A stretch of DNA of 64,000 bases from Herbaspirillum frisingense. GTDB lineage: Bacteria > Pseudomonadota > Gammaproteobacteria > Burkholderiales > Burkholderiaceae_D. The stretch spans positions 1-64,000 of the forward strand of contig WNDX01000005.1 in NCBI GenBank assembly GCA_009914615.1, given 5' to 3'. Shown in pieces: positions 8,215-57,046 of this stretch (within the stretch, counting starts at the first letter, position 1; each line of letters starts with the position of its first letter). Position numbers and translations under genes: made by a program. A model generated the notes under the pieces. It had not been told where the DNA came from, ran no database searches, and saw only the letters and a program-made list of their open reading frames with translations.

Positions 8215-10287
8215 ATGTCCGCCCCATCGTTCGGTCTGAACAAGCCGCAAAGCGAAGCCGTCCACTACATGGCCGGCCCCTGCCTGGTGCTGGCCGGCGC
8301 CGGCTCGGGCAAGACGCGCGTGATCACGCAGAAGATCGCGCACCTGATCGAGAACTGCGGCTACGAGTCGCGCAACATCGCCGCGCTGACCTTCACCAAC
8401 AAGGCCGCGCTGGAAATGCAGGAACGCATCGCCAAGCTGCTCAAGGATCCGAAGCAGGCCAAGCACCTCACGGTCTCGACCTTCCACTCGCTGGGGGTCA
8501 AGATACTGCGCCAGGAGTCCAAGCATCTGGGGTTGAAGGATCGCTTTTCAATCATGGACAGCGACGATTGCTTTTCCCTGGTGCAAGAGCTGGCGGTGAC
8601 CACCGACAAGGCCATCATCCGCGGCATCCAGAACTCCATCTCGCTGTGGAAGAACGGCCTGGTCGATCCCGAGGTCGCGCTCAAGAGCGCCACCACCGAA
8701 GACGAAGCCCAGGCAGCCCGCATCTTCCGCAGCTACGTGGCCACGCTGAAGGCCTATCAGGCGGTCGATTTCGATGACCTGATCCGGCTGCCGGTGGAAC
8801 TGTTCCAGAGCAACGAAGAAGTGCGCGACCGCTGGCAGCGCAAACTGCGCTACCTGCTCATCGACGAATACCAGGACACCAATACCTGCCAGTACGAGCT
8901 GGTCAAGCTGCTGGTGACCGGCGTGGGCAAGAAGCCCATGTTCACCGCGGTGGGCGACGACGACCAGGCGATCTATGCCTGGCGCGGCGCCACCATGGAG
9001 AACCTCAAGCTGCTGGGCGTGGATTTTCCCAACCTGCACCTGATCAAGCTGGAACAGAACTACCGCTCCAGCACCCGCATCCTGAAGGCCGCCAACTCGG
9101 TCATCGCCAACAATCCCAAGCTGTTCGAAAAGACCTTGTGGTCCGAACACGGCCTGGGCGATCCGATCAGCGTGATGGCGATGGACGACGAGGAATCGGA
9201 AGCCGACCAGATCGCCATCTCGCTGTCGGCCCACCGTTTCGAGCGGCACGCCAAGTTCGCCGACTACGCCATCCTGTACCGCGGCAACCACCAGGCGCGC
9301 ATCCTGGAAAAGGCGCTGCGCCGCGAGCGCATCCCCTATGTGATGTCGGGCGGCCAGAGTTATTTCGACCGCGCCGAGATCAAGGACATCATTGCCTACC
9401 TGCGCCTGATCGCCAACCAGGACGACGATCCCGCTTTCATCCGCGCCGTCACCACGCCACGCCGCGGCGTCGGCCAGGCCACGCTGGAAGTGCTGGGCAC
9501 GCTGGCCGGCCAGTGGCAATGTTCGCTGTTCGAAGCGGTCTACAAGGGCGGCCTGGAAGACAAGCTGACCGACCGCCAACTGCTGCCGCTGCGCAAGTTC
9601 TGCGATTTCATCAATGCACTGGAATCGCGCGCCACCCGCCCCGGCCCCTCCGGCAGCGGCGAGAATGCCGGCAAGGTGCTGGACGACATGATGGAAGCCA
9701 TCAACTATGAGTTCTATCTCTACGACAGCTTCGAGGAGCGCGCCGCGCAGGCGCGCTGGCAAAACGTGGTGGACTTCACCAACTGGCTCAAGGAACGCGC
9801 CTGCGGCGGCCGCGATCGCGACGGCGAGGAAAAGAACCTGCTCGAAATCACGCAGATGGTGGCGCTGATGAGCATGCTGGAAGGCCGTGACGAAGAACAG
9901 GACGCGGTGCGCATGTCCACGCTGCACGCCTCCAAGGGGCTGGAATTCCCGCACGTGTTCCTGGTCGGCGTGGAAGAAGGCATCCTGCCGCACAAGGGCG
10001 ATCCCGACACCCCGCCCGAGCAAGCCGCGGCGCGCATCGAAGAGGAACGCCGCCTGATGTACGTCGGCATCACGCGCGCCCAGCGCACGCTGCATCTGTC
10101 GTGGTGCAAGCGCCGCAAGCGCGCCAAGGAAGTGATCGAGTGCCAGATCTCGCGCTTCGTGAAAGAGATGCGCCTGGACGAAGGCGAAGCGGTGCCGCAG
10201 GAAGCCGAAAAGATCACGCCGCAAGCGCGCCTGGCCAACCTCAAGGCCTTGCTGCAAAAACCCAAGCCGGCGCCGGATCCGGCCTGA
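8215..10287 (+). CDS. rep: ATP-dependent DNA helicase Rep/UvrD family
   Basis: GAGSGKTRVITQKI (Walker A), LIDEYQDTN, GDDDQAIYAWRGA, LEQNYRSS, STLHASKGLEFPHVF. Confidence 0.93.
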   Translation: MSAPSFGLNKPQSEAVHYMAGPCLVLAGAGSGKTRVITQKIAHLIENCGYESRNIAALTFTNKAALEMQERIAKLLKDPKQAKHLTVSTFHSLGVKILRQESKHLGLKDRFSIMDSDDCFSLVQELAVTTDKAIIRGIQNSISLWKNGLVDPEVALKSATTEDEAQAARIFRSYVATLKAYQAVDFDDLIRLPVELFQSNEEVRDRWQRKLRYLLIDEYQDTNTCQYELVKLLVTGVGKKPMFTAVGDDDQAIYAWRGATMENLKLLGVDFPNLHLIKLEQNYRSSTRILKAANSVIANNPKLFEKTLWSEHGLGDPISVMAMDDEESEADQIAISLSAHRFERHAKFADYAILYRGNHQARILEKALRRERIPYVMSGGQSYFDRAEIKDIIAYLRLIANQDDDPAFIRAVTTPRRGVGQATLEVLGTLAGQWQCSLFEAVYKGGLEDKLTDRQLLPLRKFCDFINALESRATRPGPSGSGENAGKVLDDMMEAINYEFYLYDSFEERAAQARWQNVVDFTNWLKERACGGRDRDGEEKNLLEITQMVALMSMLEGRDEEQDAVRMSTLHASKGLEFPHVFLVGVEEGILPHKGDPDTPPEQAAARIEEERRLMYVGITRAQRTLHLSWCKRRKRAKEVIECQISRFVKEMRLDEGEAVPQEAEKITPQARLANLKALLQKPKPAPDPA

Positions 10288-51252: not shown

Positions 51253-53406
51253 TCAGATATCGACCGGATCGACTTCCAGCGACCAGCGCGCGCGTGTCTT
51301 CACCTGCCGCAGGAGCGCCAGCCATTCCTTGAGGAAAGCCTGCAACGCCGGGCGCGATGGGCATTCGACCAGCAACTGCGCGCGCTCGACATTGGCCACC
51401 CGCATCAGGGTCATGGGAATGGGTTCGTTGATGGTAATGGCGGGGTTGTCGAGGATCGCCGCCGCCTCCTTCAGGAAGGCCATGGCCAGTTCCAGCTGGC
51501 GCGCCTCCGCGCGCAGCAGGGCCTGATACATGAAAGGCGGGAAGTAAGCTTGGCGGCGCTCGTCCAGCAGCGTGCCGGCGAAGCCGTCGTAGTCGTGGCG
51601 GATCACGGCCTGGTACAGCGGATGATGCGGATAGCGCGTCTGGATCAGCACCTCCCCGGAACTGCCGTCGGCCGACAGCCCGGCCCGCCCGGCCCGGCCC
51701 GCCACCTGCATCAGTTGCGCGAACAGCCGCTCGCTGGCGCGGTAGTCGTGCGAGAACAGCGCGGTGTCGGGGTTCATCACGCCCACCAGCGTCAGCTTTT
51801 TGAAGTCATGCCCCTTGGCCACCATCTGGGTGCCGATCAGGATATCCACCTCGCCCCGGTGCACGCTGTCGAAGGCGCTCTGCGCCGAACCCTTGAGGCG
51901 GGTGGAATCGGCGTCGATGCGCAACACGCGCGCCTCGGGGAAGATCGCATGCAAGCCCTCCTCCACGCGCTGGGTGCCGCGCCCCAGGGGCTGCAAGTCC
52001 ACGTTGCCGCAGGTCGGGCAGGACTTGGGGATAGCCAGTTCCAGGCTGCAGTGGTGGCAGCGCAGACGGCGCTCCGGACGGTGCACCACCATGAAGGCGT
52101 CGCAGCGCATGCAGTTGCTGATCCAGCCGCAGGCGTCGCACGCCAGCACCGGCGCATAGCCGCGGCGGTTAAGGAAGAGCAGCGACTGCTCGCCATGTTC
52201 CAGGCGCTTGCGCACGGCGGCGATGAGCGTGGAGGTCAGGCCGTCGGCGGGCTTGTCTCGCTCCATGTCGATCACCTTGACCTTGGGCAGCACCGCCTGC
52301 TGCGCCGCGCGCTGGCGCAGTTCCAGGCGGCGGTAGCGGCCGGCCTGGGCGTGGTGCCAGGTTTCCAGCGACGGCGTGGCCGAGCCAAGCACCACCGGGA
52401 TGCCGAGCTGGCGGGCGCGCCAGACGGCCAGGTCGCGCGCCGAATAGCGCAGGCCTTCTTGCTGCTTGTAGGAAGGATCGTGCTCTTCGTCGATGACGAT
52501 GAGCTTGAGCGCCGGCAGCGAGGACAGGATCGCCAGCCGCGTGCCCAGCACGATGTGGGCCTGGCCCAGATGCGCGGCCAGCCAGTTGCGGGCGCGCTCG
52601 CCTTCGGCCAGGCCGCTGTGCAGCGCCACCACATTCAGGTGCGGGAAACGCGCGCGGATATTGCCTTCCAGCTGCGGCGTCAGGTTGATTTCGGGGACCA
52701 GCACCAGGATCTGCGCGGGCGCCGGCTGGTCCGCCTGCCACGGCCGGCCGTCAGCGGCCAGCGCATCGGCTTCGCGGCGCAGGATGGCGGCTGCGGCTTG
52801 CAGATACACCTCGGTCTTGCCGCTGCCGGTCACGCCGTACAGCAGCAGCGGCGCGAAACCCCGGGCCTGGGCGATGGCATCGGCAGCCTCTTGCTGGGCC
52901 ACGTTCAGCGGCGGTGCGACGCCGAATTGCATGGGATCGGGCGCGGCCTGCGCTTCAGATTGCGGCGACTCTGGCGACGCGACGTCGGCGGCCTTGGATT
53001 TGGCCTTGCGCTTCCTGGGCGCGGGCGTCTTGTCCAGCGCCTTGAGCGCCTTGTCCAACGCCACCGTGGTCAGCGCGCGCAGGTTCTTGGGCAGGCCGGG
53101 CAACATCACCTCGCCCAGCGGACGCTGATAGTAGTCGGCGGCGAAACCGCACAGCGCCAACCAATGCGCGGACAGCGGCGGCAGCTGGCTGCGCACGGCG
53201 ATCACGTCCTTGATCTTGTCGGCGCCGAGCTCGCTCTGCCCGGCATGGCCGACCACCACGCCGACGACCTCGCGCCGGCCGAACGGCACCACCACCAATT
53301 GGCCGATGGCGGGAATCGCCTCGCTCGGCGCCTGCGGCCGCCAACAATAGTCGAAGACGGTATGCAAGGGGGTATCGAGGGCGACCTGGAGGATACTTTG
53401 TTCCAC
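51253..53406 (-). CDS. priA: Primosomal protein N' (PriA helicase)
   Basis: LLYGVTGSGKTEVYLQ; IDEEHDPSYKQQEG; zinc cysteines CDACGWISNCMRCD..CHHC..CPTCG. Confidence 0.96.
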   Translation of the reverse strand: MEQSILQVALDTPLHTVFDYCWRPQAPSEAIPAIGQLVVVPFGRREVVGVVVGHAGQSELGADKIKDVIAVRSQLPPLSAHWLALCGFAADYYQRPLGEVMLPGLPKNLRALTTVALDKALKALDKTPAPRKRKAKSKAADVASPESPQSEAQAAPDPMQFGVAPPLNVAQQEAADAIAQARGFAPLLLYGVTGSGKTEVYLQAAAAILRREADALAADGRPWQADQPAPAQILVLVPEINLTPQLEGNIRARFPHLNVVALHSGLAEGERARNWLAAHLGQAHIVLGTRLAILSSLPALKLIVIDEEHDPSYKQQEGLRYSARDLAVWRARQLGIPVVLGSATPSLETWHHAQAGRYRRLELRQRAAQQAVLPKVKVIDMERDKPADGLTSTLIAAVRKRLEHGEQSLLFLNRRGYAPVLACDACGWISNCMRCDAFMVVHRPERRLRCHHCSLELAIPKSCPTCGNVDLQPLGRGTQRVEEGLHAIFPEARVLRIDADSTRLKGSAQSAFDSVHRGEVDILIGTQMVAKGHDFKKLTLVGVMNPDTALFSHDYRASERLFAQLMQVAGRAGRAGLSADGSSGEVLIQTRYPHHPLYQAVIRHDYDGFAGTLLDERRQAYFPPFMYQALLRAEARQLELAMAFLKEAAAILDNPAITINEPIPMTLMRVANVERAQLLVECPSRPALQAFLKEWLALLRQVKTRARWSLEVDPVDI

Positions 53407-53439: not shown

Positions 53440-54050
53440 CTCACGGTTTAGACGCTATTTTTTGACCTATCCACAAATACTGTGGATAACTTTGGGGACA
53501 AGTGCCTATTGACAGGTTCACCGCCAGACTGGGGGCGGCTTTCGACAAGATGCCCAAATCAAAAGCAAAAAAATATCCCAATAAAATCAGTCACTTATAT
53601 TTCCATCGCCGGATTGGAAAAATATTTTCTCAAAAAATTTCGGGAGCCATCCGCCGCCCCTTCCATGTGCATAAGTCCCACCGGAGAGATGAGGCTATGG
53701 ACATTTGTCAAGCGTTCTCCGACCAAACTGTGAAGGTTTTTTCCGGCGAACGGCGTCGCTCGCTGTCCTACATATTTAAAGTAAAACTTCAAAATCACCC
53801 GTAAACGACGGTTTACTAAGTGTTTTTGTGATTTATTCACACAACTTGTGGATAACTTTGTTGACAAGTGCCTCTTGACAGCCCCGCAGCCCGCCAAGGG
53901 GGTGGTTTACAAGGATTTGCCCAAAAGCGTGGCAAAAAATTATCCCAATAAAATCAATCACTTACAAATATGCCGCTGCCAACCGAATCCGCATGTCGAT
54001 ATTAGCGATTCTCAATAAGAAGCAAGCGGGAAATGTGCATAAGTCGAGCT
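53440..54050. repeat. Imperfect tandem duplication with DnaA boxes and AT-rich tracts (candidate oriC or DnaA-binding locus)
   Basis: DnaA-like boxes 53467-53475 (CTATCCACA), 53481-53489 (TGTGGATAA), 53666-53674 (TGTGCATAA); second copy 53833-53841 (TTATTCACA), 53847-53855 (TGTGGATAA), 54034-54042 (TGTGCATAA). Last two box pairs offset by 366-368 bp. Confidence 0.75.
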
Positions 54051-54110: not shown

Positions 54111-55190
54111 TCAGGCGCGCATCGAACGGCTGAAGTCGTGCACCGCCTGCGCGAGCGTGGACACCGCTTCCGGCGGGGTATGCTGGGAAATGCCGTGGCC
54201 GAGGTTGAAGACATGGCCACTGCCCGCGCCCGGCTTGCCAAAGGATTCCAGCAACTTGCGCACTTCGGCGCGGATAGCCTCGTCGCCGGCAAACAGCACA
54301 TTGGGATCGAGATTGCCTTGCAGCGCGACCTTGTCGCCCACGCGGCGGCGCGCTTCGCCCAGATTCACGGTCCAGTCCAGGCCAACGGCGTCGGCGCCGA
54401 TGGCGGCAATCTGCTCCAGCCACAGGCCGCCGCCCTTGGTGAACACGATCACCGGAATGCGCTCGCCGTTCTGCTCGCGCTTCAGCTGGCTGACCACCTG
54501 GGCCATGTAGGCCAGCGAGAATTGCTGGTAGATGCCATCGGCCAGCGCGCCGCCCCAGGTGTCGAATATCATCACGGCCTGCGCGCCGGCGGCGATCTGC
54601 GCATTCAGATACGCGGCCACGGCGTCGGCATTGGTCTTGAGGATGTGGTGCATCAGATCAGGGCGGCCGTACAGCATGCTCTTGACCAGACGGAAGTCGT
54701 CCGAGCCGCCGCCCTCCACCATGTAGCACGCCAGCGTCCACGGGCTGCCCGAGAAACCGATCAGGGGCACGCGGCCGTCCAGCTCGCGGCGGATCTGGGT
54801 GACGGCGTCGAACACGTAGTTGAGCTTGGCCAGATCCGGCGCCCGCAGGGCCCTGACGGCGGCCTCGTCACGCAGCGGACGTTCAAACTTGGGACCTTCG
54901 CCCTCGGCGAAATACAAGCCCAGCCCCATGGCATCGGGCACGGTCAAGATGTCGGAGAACAGGATGGCGGCGTCCAGCGGATAACGCTCCAGCGGCTGCA
55001 GCGTGACTTCGGTGGCATAGTCGGGATTGGTCGCCAGACCCATGAAGGAGCCGGCGCGGGCGCGCGTGGCGCGGTATTCCGGCAGGTAGCGGCCGGCCTG
55101 GCGCATCAGCCATAGCGGCGTGTAGTCGGTGGGTTGGCGCAGCAGGGCGCGCAGGAAGGTATCGTTTTTGAGCGGTGCGAATGGGGACAT
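54111..55190 (-). CDS. hemE: Uroporphyrinogen decarboxylase
   Basis: [39 protein letters not shown]. Confidence 0.96.
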
Positions 55191-55340
55191 GATCGGCCTT
55201 GATGCTAACTGACGGCAATCCGTCATTATCTCATCCAAAGCGCGACGCTTCTGCCTAATTGTCGCTATCGCCCTGCGCTGATATTGACGCAGATCGTGGC
55301 GGGCGCAAATCAGCAGCCGCCGCGATCCGCCCACCCGGCT

Positions 55341-56801
55341 TCAGATGCCGCCCATGCAGAGGTACTTGATCACCAGATAATCGTCCATGCCGTAATGCGA
55401 ACCTTCGCGCCCCAGCCCCGATTGCTTGACGCCGCCGAACGGCGCCACTTCGTTGGAGATCAACCCCGTGTTGATGCCCACCATGCCGGATTCCAGCCCC
55501 TCGGCCACGCGCCAGATGCGGCCGATGTCGCGCGAATAGAAATAGCTGGCCAGGCCGAATTCAGTATCGTTGGCCAGGGCCACCGCTTCCTCGTCGTTCT
55601 TGAAGCGGAACAGCGGCGCCATCGGACCGAAGGTCTCTTCGCGCGCCACGCGCATGTCCTGCGTCACATCCGCCAGGATGGTCGGCTCGAAAAAACTGCC
55701 GCCCAGGGCGTGGCGCTTGCCGCCCAGCAGCACGCGCGCGCCCTTGCCGGTAGCGTCGGCGATGTGTTCCTCGACCTTCTTCACGGCGTCCTCGTTGATC
55801 AGCGGCCCTTGCGTGACGCCGTTCTCGACGCCATTGCCGACCTTGAGCTTCTTGACGGCCTCGATCAGCCTGGCGGCGAAGGCGTCATACACGCCGTCCT
55901 GCACATAAATGCGATTGGCGCAGACGCAGGTCTGGCCGGCATTGCGATACTTGGAGGCAATCGCGCCCTCGACTGCGGCATCGAGATCGGCGTCGTCGAA
56001 GACGATGAACGGCGCATTGCCGCCCAGCTCCAGCGACAGTTTCTTGATGGTGGGCGCGGATTGCTCCATCAGCTTGCGCCCGATGTCGGTGGAGCCGGTG
56101 AAGGAAAGCTTGCGCACCAGCGGATTGGCCGCCATCTCGCCGCCGATCGCGCCGGACGAGCCGGTCACCACGCTGAACACGCCCTTGGGTACCCCCGCGC
56201 GCTCGGCCAGCACGGCCAGGGCCAGCGCCGAGAACGGCGTGGCGCCGGCTGGCTTCAACACCATCGGACAACCCGCCGCCAAGGCCGGACCGACCTTGCG
56301 CGTGATCATCGCCGCCGGGAAATTCCACGGCGTGATCGCCGCGCACACGCCGATCGGTTCCTTGGTGACAAGGATGCGATTGCCCGCCAGCGGCGACGGA
56401 ATCACGTCGCCATAAGCACGCTTGGCTTCCTCGCCGAACCACTCGATGAAGGACGCGGCATAGCCGATCTCGCCCTTGGATTCGGCTAGCGGCTTGCCTT
56501 GCTCGGTGGTCATGATCAACGCCAGGTCGTCGGCATTGGCCAGCATCAGCTCGCTCCACTTGCGCAGGATCTTGCCGCGCTCGGCGGCCGTCCTGGCGCG
56601 CCATTCCTTCCAGGCCGCGTTCGCGGCTTCGATGGCGCGACGCGTCTCGGCCGCGCCCATCTTCGGAATCGTGCCTATCGTCTCGCCGTTGGCGGGGTTC
56701 TGCACGGCGGTGGTCTCGCCGCCGTCGGCATCCACCCATTTGCCATCCACATAGGCTTGCTGGCGCAGCAGCGCCGGATCGTTCAGCTTGAGCATTCGCA
56801 T
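55341..56801 (-). CDS. gabD: Succinate-semialdehyde dehydrogenase
   Basis: LSLELGGNAPFIVFDDADLD; NAGQTCVCANRIYVQ. Confidence 0.92.
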   Translation of the reverse strand: MRMLKLNDPALLRQQAYVDGKWVDADGGETTAVQNPANGETIGTIPKMGAAETRRAIEAANAAWKEWRARTAAERGKILRKWSELMLANADDLALIMTTEQGKPLAESKGEIGYAASFIEWFGEEAKRAYGDVIPSPLAGNRILVTKEPIGVCAAITPWNFPAAMITRKVGPALAAGCPMVLKPAGATPFSALALAVLAERAGVPKGVFSVVTGSSGAIGGEMAANPLVRKLSFTGSTDIGRKLMEQSAPTIKKLSLELGGNAPFIVFDDADLDAAVEGAIASKYRNAGQTCVCANRIYVQDGVYDAFAARLIEAVKKLKVGNGVENGVTQGPLINEDAVKKVEEHIADATGKGARVLLGGKRHALGGSFFEPTILADVTQDMRVAREETFGPMAPLFRFKNDEEAVALANDTEFGLASYFYSRDIGRIWRVAEGLESGMVGINTGLISNEVAPFGGVKQSGLGREGSHYGMDDYLVIKYLCMGGI

Positions 56802-57046
56802 CTCCCTGGCATGGTTTCGGTTGCACTTCGCGCTTGACCCGTGCCTCACGAATGCGGCATCGGCGCGCTGATCACTTTTAGTAAGCGATGCGCCCGGGGA
56901 GTTCAGAAACGGCACGTTGTCCTACGAAAGGACGGCCGGTTTTGCTATGATCGGCAAGCTGCCACGAGACAGCACAGCAGACGGCGCGCCAATCATGACA
57001 ACAAGCCGGCGCCGCATGGCCAACACATCAATCAGGAGACAACAAC

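Follow-up and report, generated by a model that had tools for sequence, protein, structure and literature searches.

A tandem array of DnaA boxes and IHF sites between priA and hemE of Herbaspirillum frisingense as a candidate pair of DARS-type sites

Composition of the priA-hemE array

The window, a 64,000-nt stretch of the Herbaspirillum frisingense genome (contig WNDX01000005.1), contains an array of boxes for DnaA, the replication initiator, located just upstream of priA and just downstream of hemE. Pfam analysis identifies both genes, as well as atp genes located on the minus strand to the right of hemE. An aldehyde dehydrogenase gene (55341-56915, minus strand) is located directly upstream of hemE, on the atp-operon side. 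The only known RNA element in the window is a tRNA, and no promoter or terminator is predicted above chance at the array. The features of the locus are as follows:

51253..53406, minus strand: priA
53467..53475, plus strand: copy A DnaA box I, CTATCCACA, 8/9 match in the box scan (geometry as in E. coli DARS1 and DARS2)
53481..53489, minus strand: copy A DnaA box II, TTATCCACA, 9/9 match, 5 bp from box I
53493..53501, minus strand: copy A weak DnaA box III, TTGTCCCCA, 7/9 match, 3 bp from box II
53585..53597, plus strand: copy A IHF-consensus site, AATCAGTCACTTA, one mismatch, +118 from box I
53666..53674, minus strand: copy A distal DnaA box, TTATGCACA, 9/9 match, +199 from box I
53833..53841, plus strand: copy B DnaA box I, TTATTCACA, 9/9 match in the box scan
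53847..53855, minus strand: copy B DnaA box II, TTATCCACA, 9/9 match in the box scan
53859..53867, minus strand: copy B weak DnaA box III, TTGTCAACA, 7/9 match in the box scan
53952..53964, plus strand: copy B IHF-consensus site, AATCAATCACTTA, exact, +119 from box I
54034..54042, minus strand: copy B distal DnaA box, TTATGCACA, 9/9 match, +201 from box I
54111..55334, minus strand: hemE (coordinates of the longest ORF; translation probably starts further in)

All five exact TTATNCACA sites of the window fall inside 53481-54042, as compared with 0.48 expected and a maximum of 2 in 100 shuffles; the sixth box, at 53467, matches at 8 of 9 positions. Copies A and B can be aligned over ~240 nt, including the sequence blocks named in the original prediction, and its description of two imperfect box-bearing copies, five of six boxes exact, flanked by priA, hemE, and minus-strand atp genes is borne out. 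The scan further reveals two features that the prediction had overlooked: an additional, weaker DnaA box III, located 3 bp past each TGTGGATAA, and the identity of AATCA(G/A)TCACTTA as a consensus site for the DNA-bending protein IHF, having no mismatch in copy B and one mismatch in copy A. In both copies, DnaA boxes I (+), II (−), and III (−) are positioned at offsets 0, +14, and +26, such that boxes I and II face each other and box III stands in tandem behind box II; the IHF site follows at +118/+119 and the distal box at +199/+201. Boxes I and II match at 8-9 of 9 positions, within the single misfit allowed for DARS boxes, and box III matches at 7 of 9 in both window copies and at 7-9 of 9 in relatives.

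A TTGACA motif directly follows each core (53509-53514 and 53875-53880) and is present at ~+42 in many relatives; it is kept in many Oxalobacteraceae modules and absent from Duganella and Rugamonas. A role of this motif as a −35 box was rejected, the motif lacking a following −10 element and not being universal.

Distribution, spacing, and helical phasing of the module

The genome contains exactly two cores within 2 mismatches of the pattern, the adjacent cores of the array; the next best match has 3 mismatches. Two similar 3-mismatch matches, 716 bp apart (G000:C170:391-424 and 1107-1140), probably belong to an unrelated repeat. In background sequence of two relatives, ~0.002 box triples are expected per genome, and none was found in 1.5 million positions. 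Of 399 genomes of the order, 68 have the strict core pattern, and of 239 genomes of the class, 82 have a pattern that is slightly looser; reversed control patterns gave no match in either set. Within the family, DNA of the array is matched in 247 of 295 genomes.

As an unselected test set, we used 110 loci fetched solely for encoding hemE, and not for geometry. The 5/3-bp spacing accounts for 63 cores in 43 of these loci, as compared with 38 cores in total for the remaining 255 spacings, 23 of which have the same 5-bp I-II pair; many of the loci are related, and the counts are not independent events. An IHF site with at most one mismatch is located at +118 to +120 in 61 of the 63 cores of 5/3-bp spacing, and an exact distal box is located at +175 to +215 in 60. 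In gammaproteobacterial loci, the IHF site is mostly at +119 to +121, and an exact minus-strand box is at +200 to +213. A Fis consensus is located between core and IHF site in 11 of 19 gammaproteobacterial modules (2.9 expected from shuffles), usually at +85/+86 (L225-L253); betaproteobacterial modules show no such enrichment (18 of 82, as compared with 13.6 in shuffles).

Carriers of the module beside hemE include Herbaspirillum, Noviherbaspirillum, Herminiimonas, Undibacterium, Duganella, Rugamonas, Massilia, Ralstonia, and Aquitalea; several betaproteobacterial families have no module at hemE. Copy number is one, two, or three, depending on the genus, with Herminiimonas fonticola (L096) having three tandem modules at hemE (minus strand, 12250, 11864, and 11443). 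Modules also occur at other positions: genome G280 has, besides its priA-hemE module, two modules next to a response-regulator gene and a chromate transporter; one family (f4) has a module between exbD and xseA; and genome G410 has a module between a Mg-chelatase-like gene and a redoxin gene. In genus g6 (G280, G238, and G123), an additional module locus is roughly mid-arm, at ~30% of the chromosome length from dnaA, a position reminiscent of that of E. coli DARS2.

The distance from IHF site to distal box is variable and periodic. In betaproteobacterial modules it clusters at 60, 69-74, 79-83, and 91-92 bp, with a best period of 10.5 bp (R 0.83, n = 138); the period stays at 10.3-10.6 when related sequences are thinned to as few as 31 representatives, and none of 5000 smoothed nulls matches the observed R. 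Gammaproteobacterial modules are too uniform in length for a phasing test. Because the distal-box distance is phased at 10.5 bp, a protein on the distal box would have to face another protein across the IHF bend.

Comparison with DnaA-regulatory sites of E. coli

For comparison, DARS1, DARS2, and datA were taken from E. coli MG1655 and scanned in the same way as the array. DARS1 and DARS2 each have boxes at 0 (+), +14 (−), and +26 (−), in exact, base-pair-level agreement with the triple of the array. The DARS core is defined by three DnaA boxes, with box I opposite to boxes II and III (PMC5742627); the array has this orientation and the 5-bp and 3-bp gaps of DARS1 and DARS2.

Outside the core, the three E. 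coli sites differ from the array in distinct ways. DARS1 (101 bp, upstream of uvrB) has the identical core geometry, but has neither an IHF site nor an equivalent distal box. DARS2 (455 bp, upstream of mutH) shares with the array the spacing and orientation of boxes I-III and has IHF sites on the same side of the core. Differences from DARS2 include IHF sites at +93/+109 in E. coli as compared with a single site at +118/+119 in the array, about one helical turn from IBS2; Fis sites FBS2-3 in E. coli as compared with no recognised Fis site in betaproteobacterial modules; an oppositely oriented distal box; and the tandem duplication of the array. Since its IHF sites are not at +93/+109, we do not call the array a DARS2 orthologue.

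In its IHF/distal-box half, the array resembles datA at the sequence level. With datA flipped and its box 3 set to 0, IHF comes at +93 and box 2 at +162; taking box III of the module as zero puts its IHF site at +92/+93 and its distal box at +173/+175 in the window and at +162/+163 in G280. In both systems, same-direction boxes flank one IHF site, with equal orientations, and both are oriC-proximal; the distances are those of datA in G280 (93 and 162 bp), and in the window the distal box is farther away by about one helical turn. Differences from datA include the I-II-III core, which datA does not have, and the low-affinity box 7 next to datA box 2, for which the window scan found no equivalent (no box of at least 7/9) 3 bp beyond either distal box.

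Boxes II and III also resemble the double DnaA boxes of E. coli purH, polA, and mutH, being in tandem and 3 bp apart, the tandem-box spacing that DnaA prefers in vivo (PMC11317965), but here they are embedded in a bigger fixed arrangement that also comprises box I, the IHF site, and the distal box.

Candidate activity of the array and alternative readings

The array very probably belongs to the DARS/datA class of DnaA/IHF control elements, in keeping with the original prediction of a DnaA-binding regulatory locus. Within this class, we favour, with some reserve, a tandem pair of DARS-type (DnaA-reactivating) sites, a reading to which the box geometry points and which the prediction had not considered. 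The following evidence argues for this reading: the 0/+14/+26 geometry and orientation common to DARS1 and DARS2; the excess of the 5/3-bp spacing (63 versus 38 cores) in unselected hemE loci, with an IHF site at +118 to +120 in 61 and a distal box in 60 of the 63; the reversed controls without matches, the phasing of the distal box, and the modules away from priA and hemE; the presence in the genome of Hda and IHF-alpha, both over curated cut-offs, and of a Fis homologue; and the retention in its DnaA of D269, R285, and L290, among other residues that act at DARS and datA in E. coli. Against it stand the weak box III of both window copies; the +119 IHF site and distal box, which fit datA better than DARS2; the missing Fis enrichment in betaproteobacterial modules, whereas E. 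coli DARS2 needs Fis; and the oriC-proximal location, as for datA.

In the proposed mechanism, ADP-DnaA would bind boxes I-III, IHF would fold the DNA, and DnaA on the distal box would touch the core assembly; head-to-head DnaA contacts, from box I to box II, would open the nucleotide pocket; and ADP would leave, with apo-DnaA rebinding ATP and being able to fire oriC again. Two copies would raise the dose. Reactivation, rather than inactivation or titration of DnaA, is what we infer as the activity, and it is probably, although by no means securely, the main one.

Hydrolysis of the datA kind is the main rival to reactivation. In such a site, IHF would loop same-direction boxes (II/III and the distal box), and ATP-DnaA would oligomerise head to tail and hydrolyse its ATP, turning DnaA off after initiation. 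The original prediction had listed a datA-like role among its possibilities, and the distances and orientations in G280, the lack of Fis enrichment in betaproteobacterial modules, and the usual closeness of the module to dnaA (0.50-0.66 Mb away in six complete genomes of the same genus and 21-311 kb away in seven genomes from other genera) uphold it as such. We consider it unlikely as the main identity of the array: the I-II-III core, the most conserved part of the module, is missing from datA, and the box 7 equivalent was not seen.

Plain titration, in which high-affinity boxes would sequester DnaA and leave its nucleotide unchanged, has a precedent on the E. coli chromosome (PMC12371093) and fits the density of high-affinity boxes, but sequestration alone needs no fixed 5/3-bp spacing, IHF site, or 10.5-bp phasing, making this reading improbable. 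Slightly less probable again is control of priA transcription by DnaA and IHF. Copy A begins ~60 bp upstream of priA, and other modules are upstream of xseA or, in E. coli, of uvrB and mutH; against this, the module is away from priA in several lineages and no promoter rises above chance. Such control might be a by-product and not the principal role.

The reading preferred in the original prediction, a chromosomal oriC, or an ancestral copy of it, is very improbable in spite of the clustered boxes, AT-rich stretches, and IHF site, and was rejected on GC skew, KOPS counts, and dnaA location: dnaA and a cluster of nine exact boxes (8663-9268) are on a separate contig, C26; in the same-genus genomes, 0.50-0.66 Mb separate the array from dnaA; the array is not at the GC-skew minimum, and sampled skew does not change sign there in the manner of an origin in G280 or in G142, where skew is weak and noisy; and loci of this kind occur at two separate places in G280. 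The proximity of hemE to the Caulobacter origin, also invoked, looks like a coincidence of neighbours. A plasmid or phage origin was likewise rejected, GACAAGTGCCTNTTGACAG having no plasmid match and no viral-contig match.

Three further observations concern DnaA boxes and skew elsewhere. Over 9 kb, the dnaA contig (G000:C26:464-9268) carries 19 exact TTATNCACA sites, and many of these are not in the dnaA-dnaN gap. Exact DnaA box pairs in opposite orientation, 57-64 bp apart and without DARS geometry, are located at G000:C175:35020-35094 and G000:C201:20983-21064, and are possible DnaA-regulated promoters. In G280, skew changes sign at ~4.40-4.44 Mb of C1 (L260/L261), at a distance of ~0.29 Mb from dnaA, which is at 4.131 Mb, and of 0.16 Mb from the hemE-priA module; this would reflect either an inversion that recently took place close to the origin or an origin located away from dnaA.

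DARS itself is already known. Conservation of DARS2 has been described for gammaproteobacterial species close to E. coli (PMC4245941, PMC8682772), and a review mentions DARS in betaproteobacterial species, naming none (PMC5742627). Among the papers covered by our literature searches, none joins DARS with betaproteobacteria or Neisseria, and DnaA boxes with hemE and priA gave only a genome annotation paper. As far as could be checked, the composite architecture, its broad beta- and gammaproteobacterial spread, the phasing, and the tandem duplication are new. More speculatively, the module may be an ancestral beta/gammaproteobacterial DnaA switch, comprising DARS core, IHF site, and phased distal box, often with Fis at +85/+86 in gammaproteobacteria; such a switch would be a possible source of the single-purpose E. 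coli sites DARS1, DARS2, and datA, and might both recharge and discharge DnaA, depending on IHF.

The DARS-type array probably helps to time chromosome copying. If this reading is true, E. coli DARS2 would be a divergent case; the layout would be usable to find DnaA-regulating sites in many genomes; the 10.5-bp phasing would directly predict a DnaA-to-DnaA contact over the IHF bend; and the control of replication timing would become testable in Herbaspirillum, Ralstonia, and their relatives.
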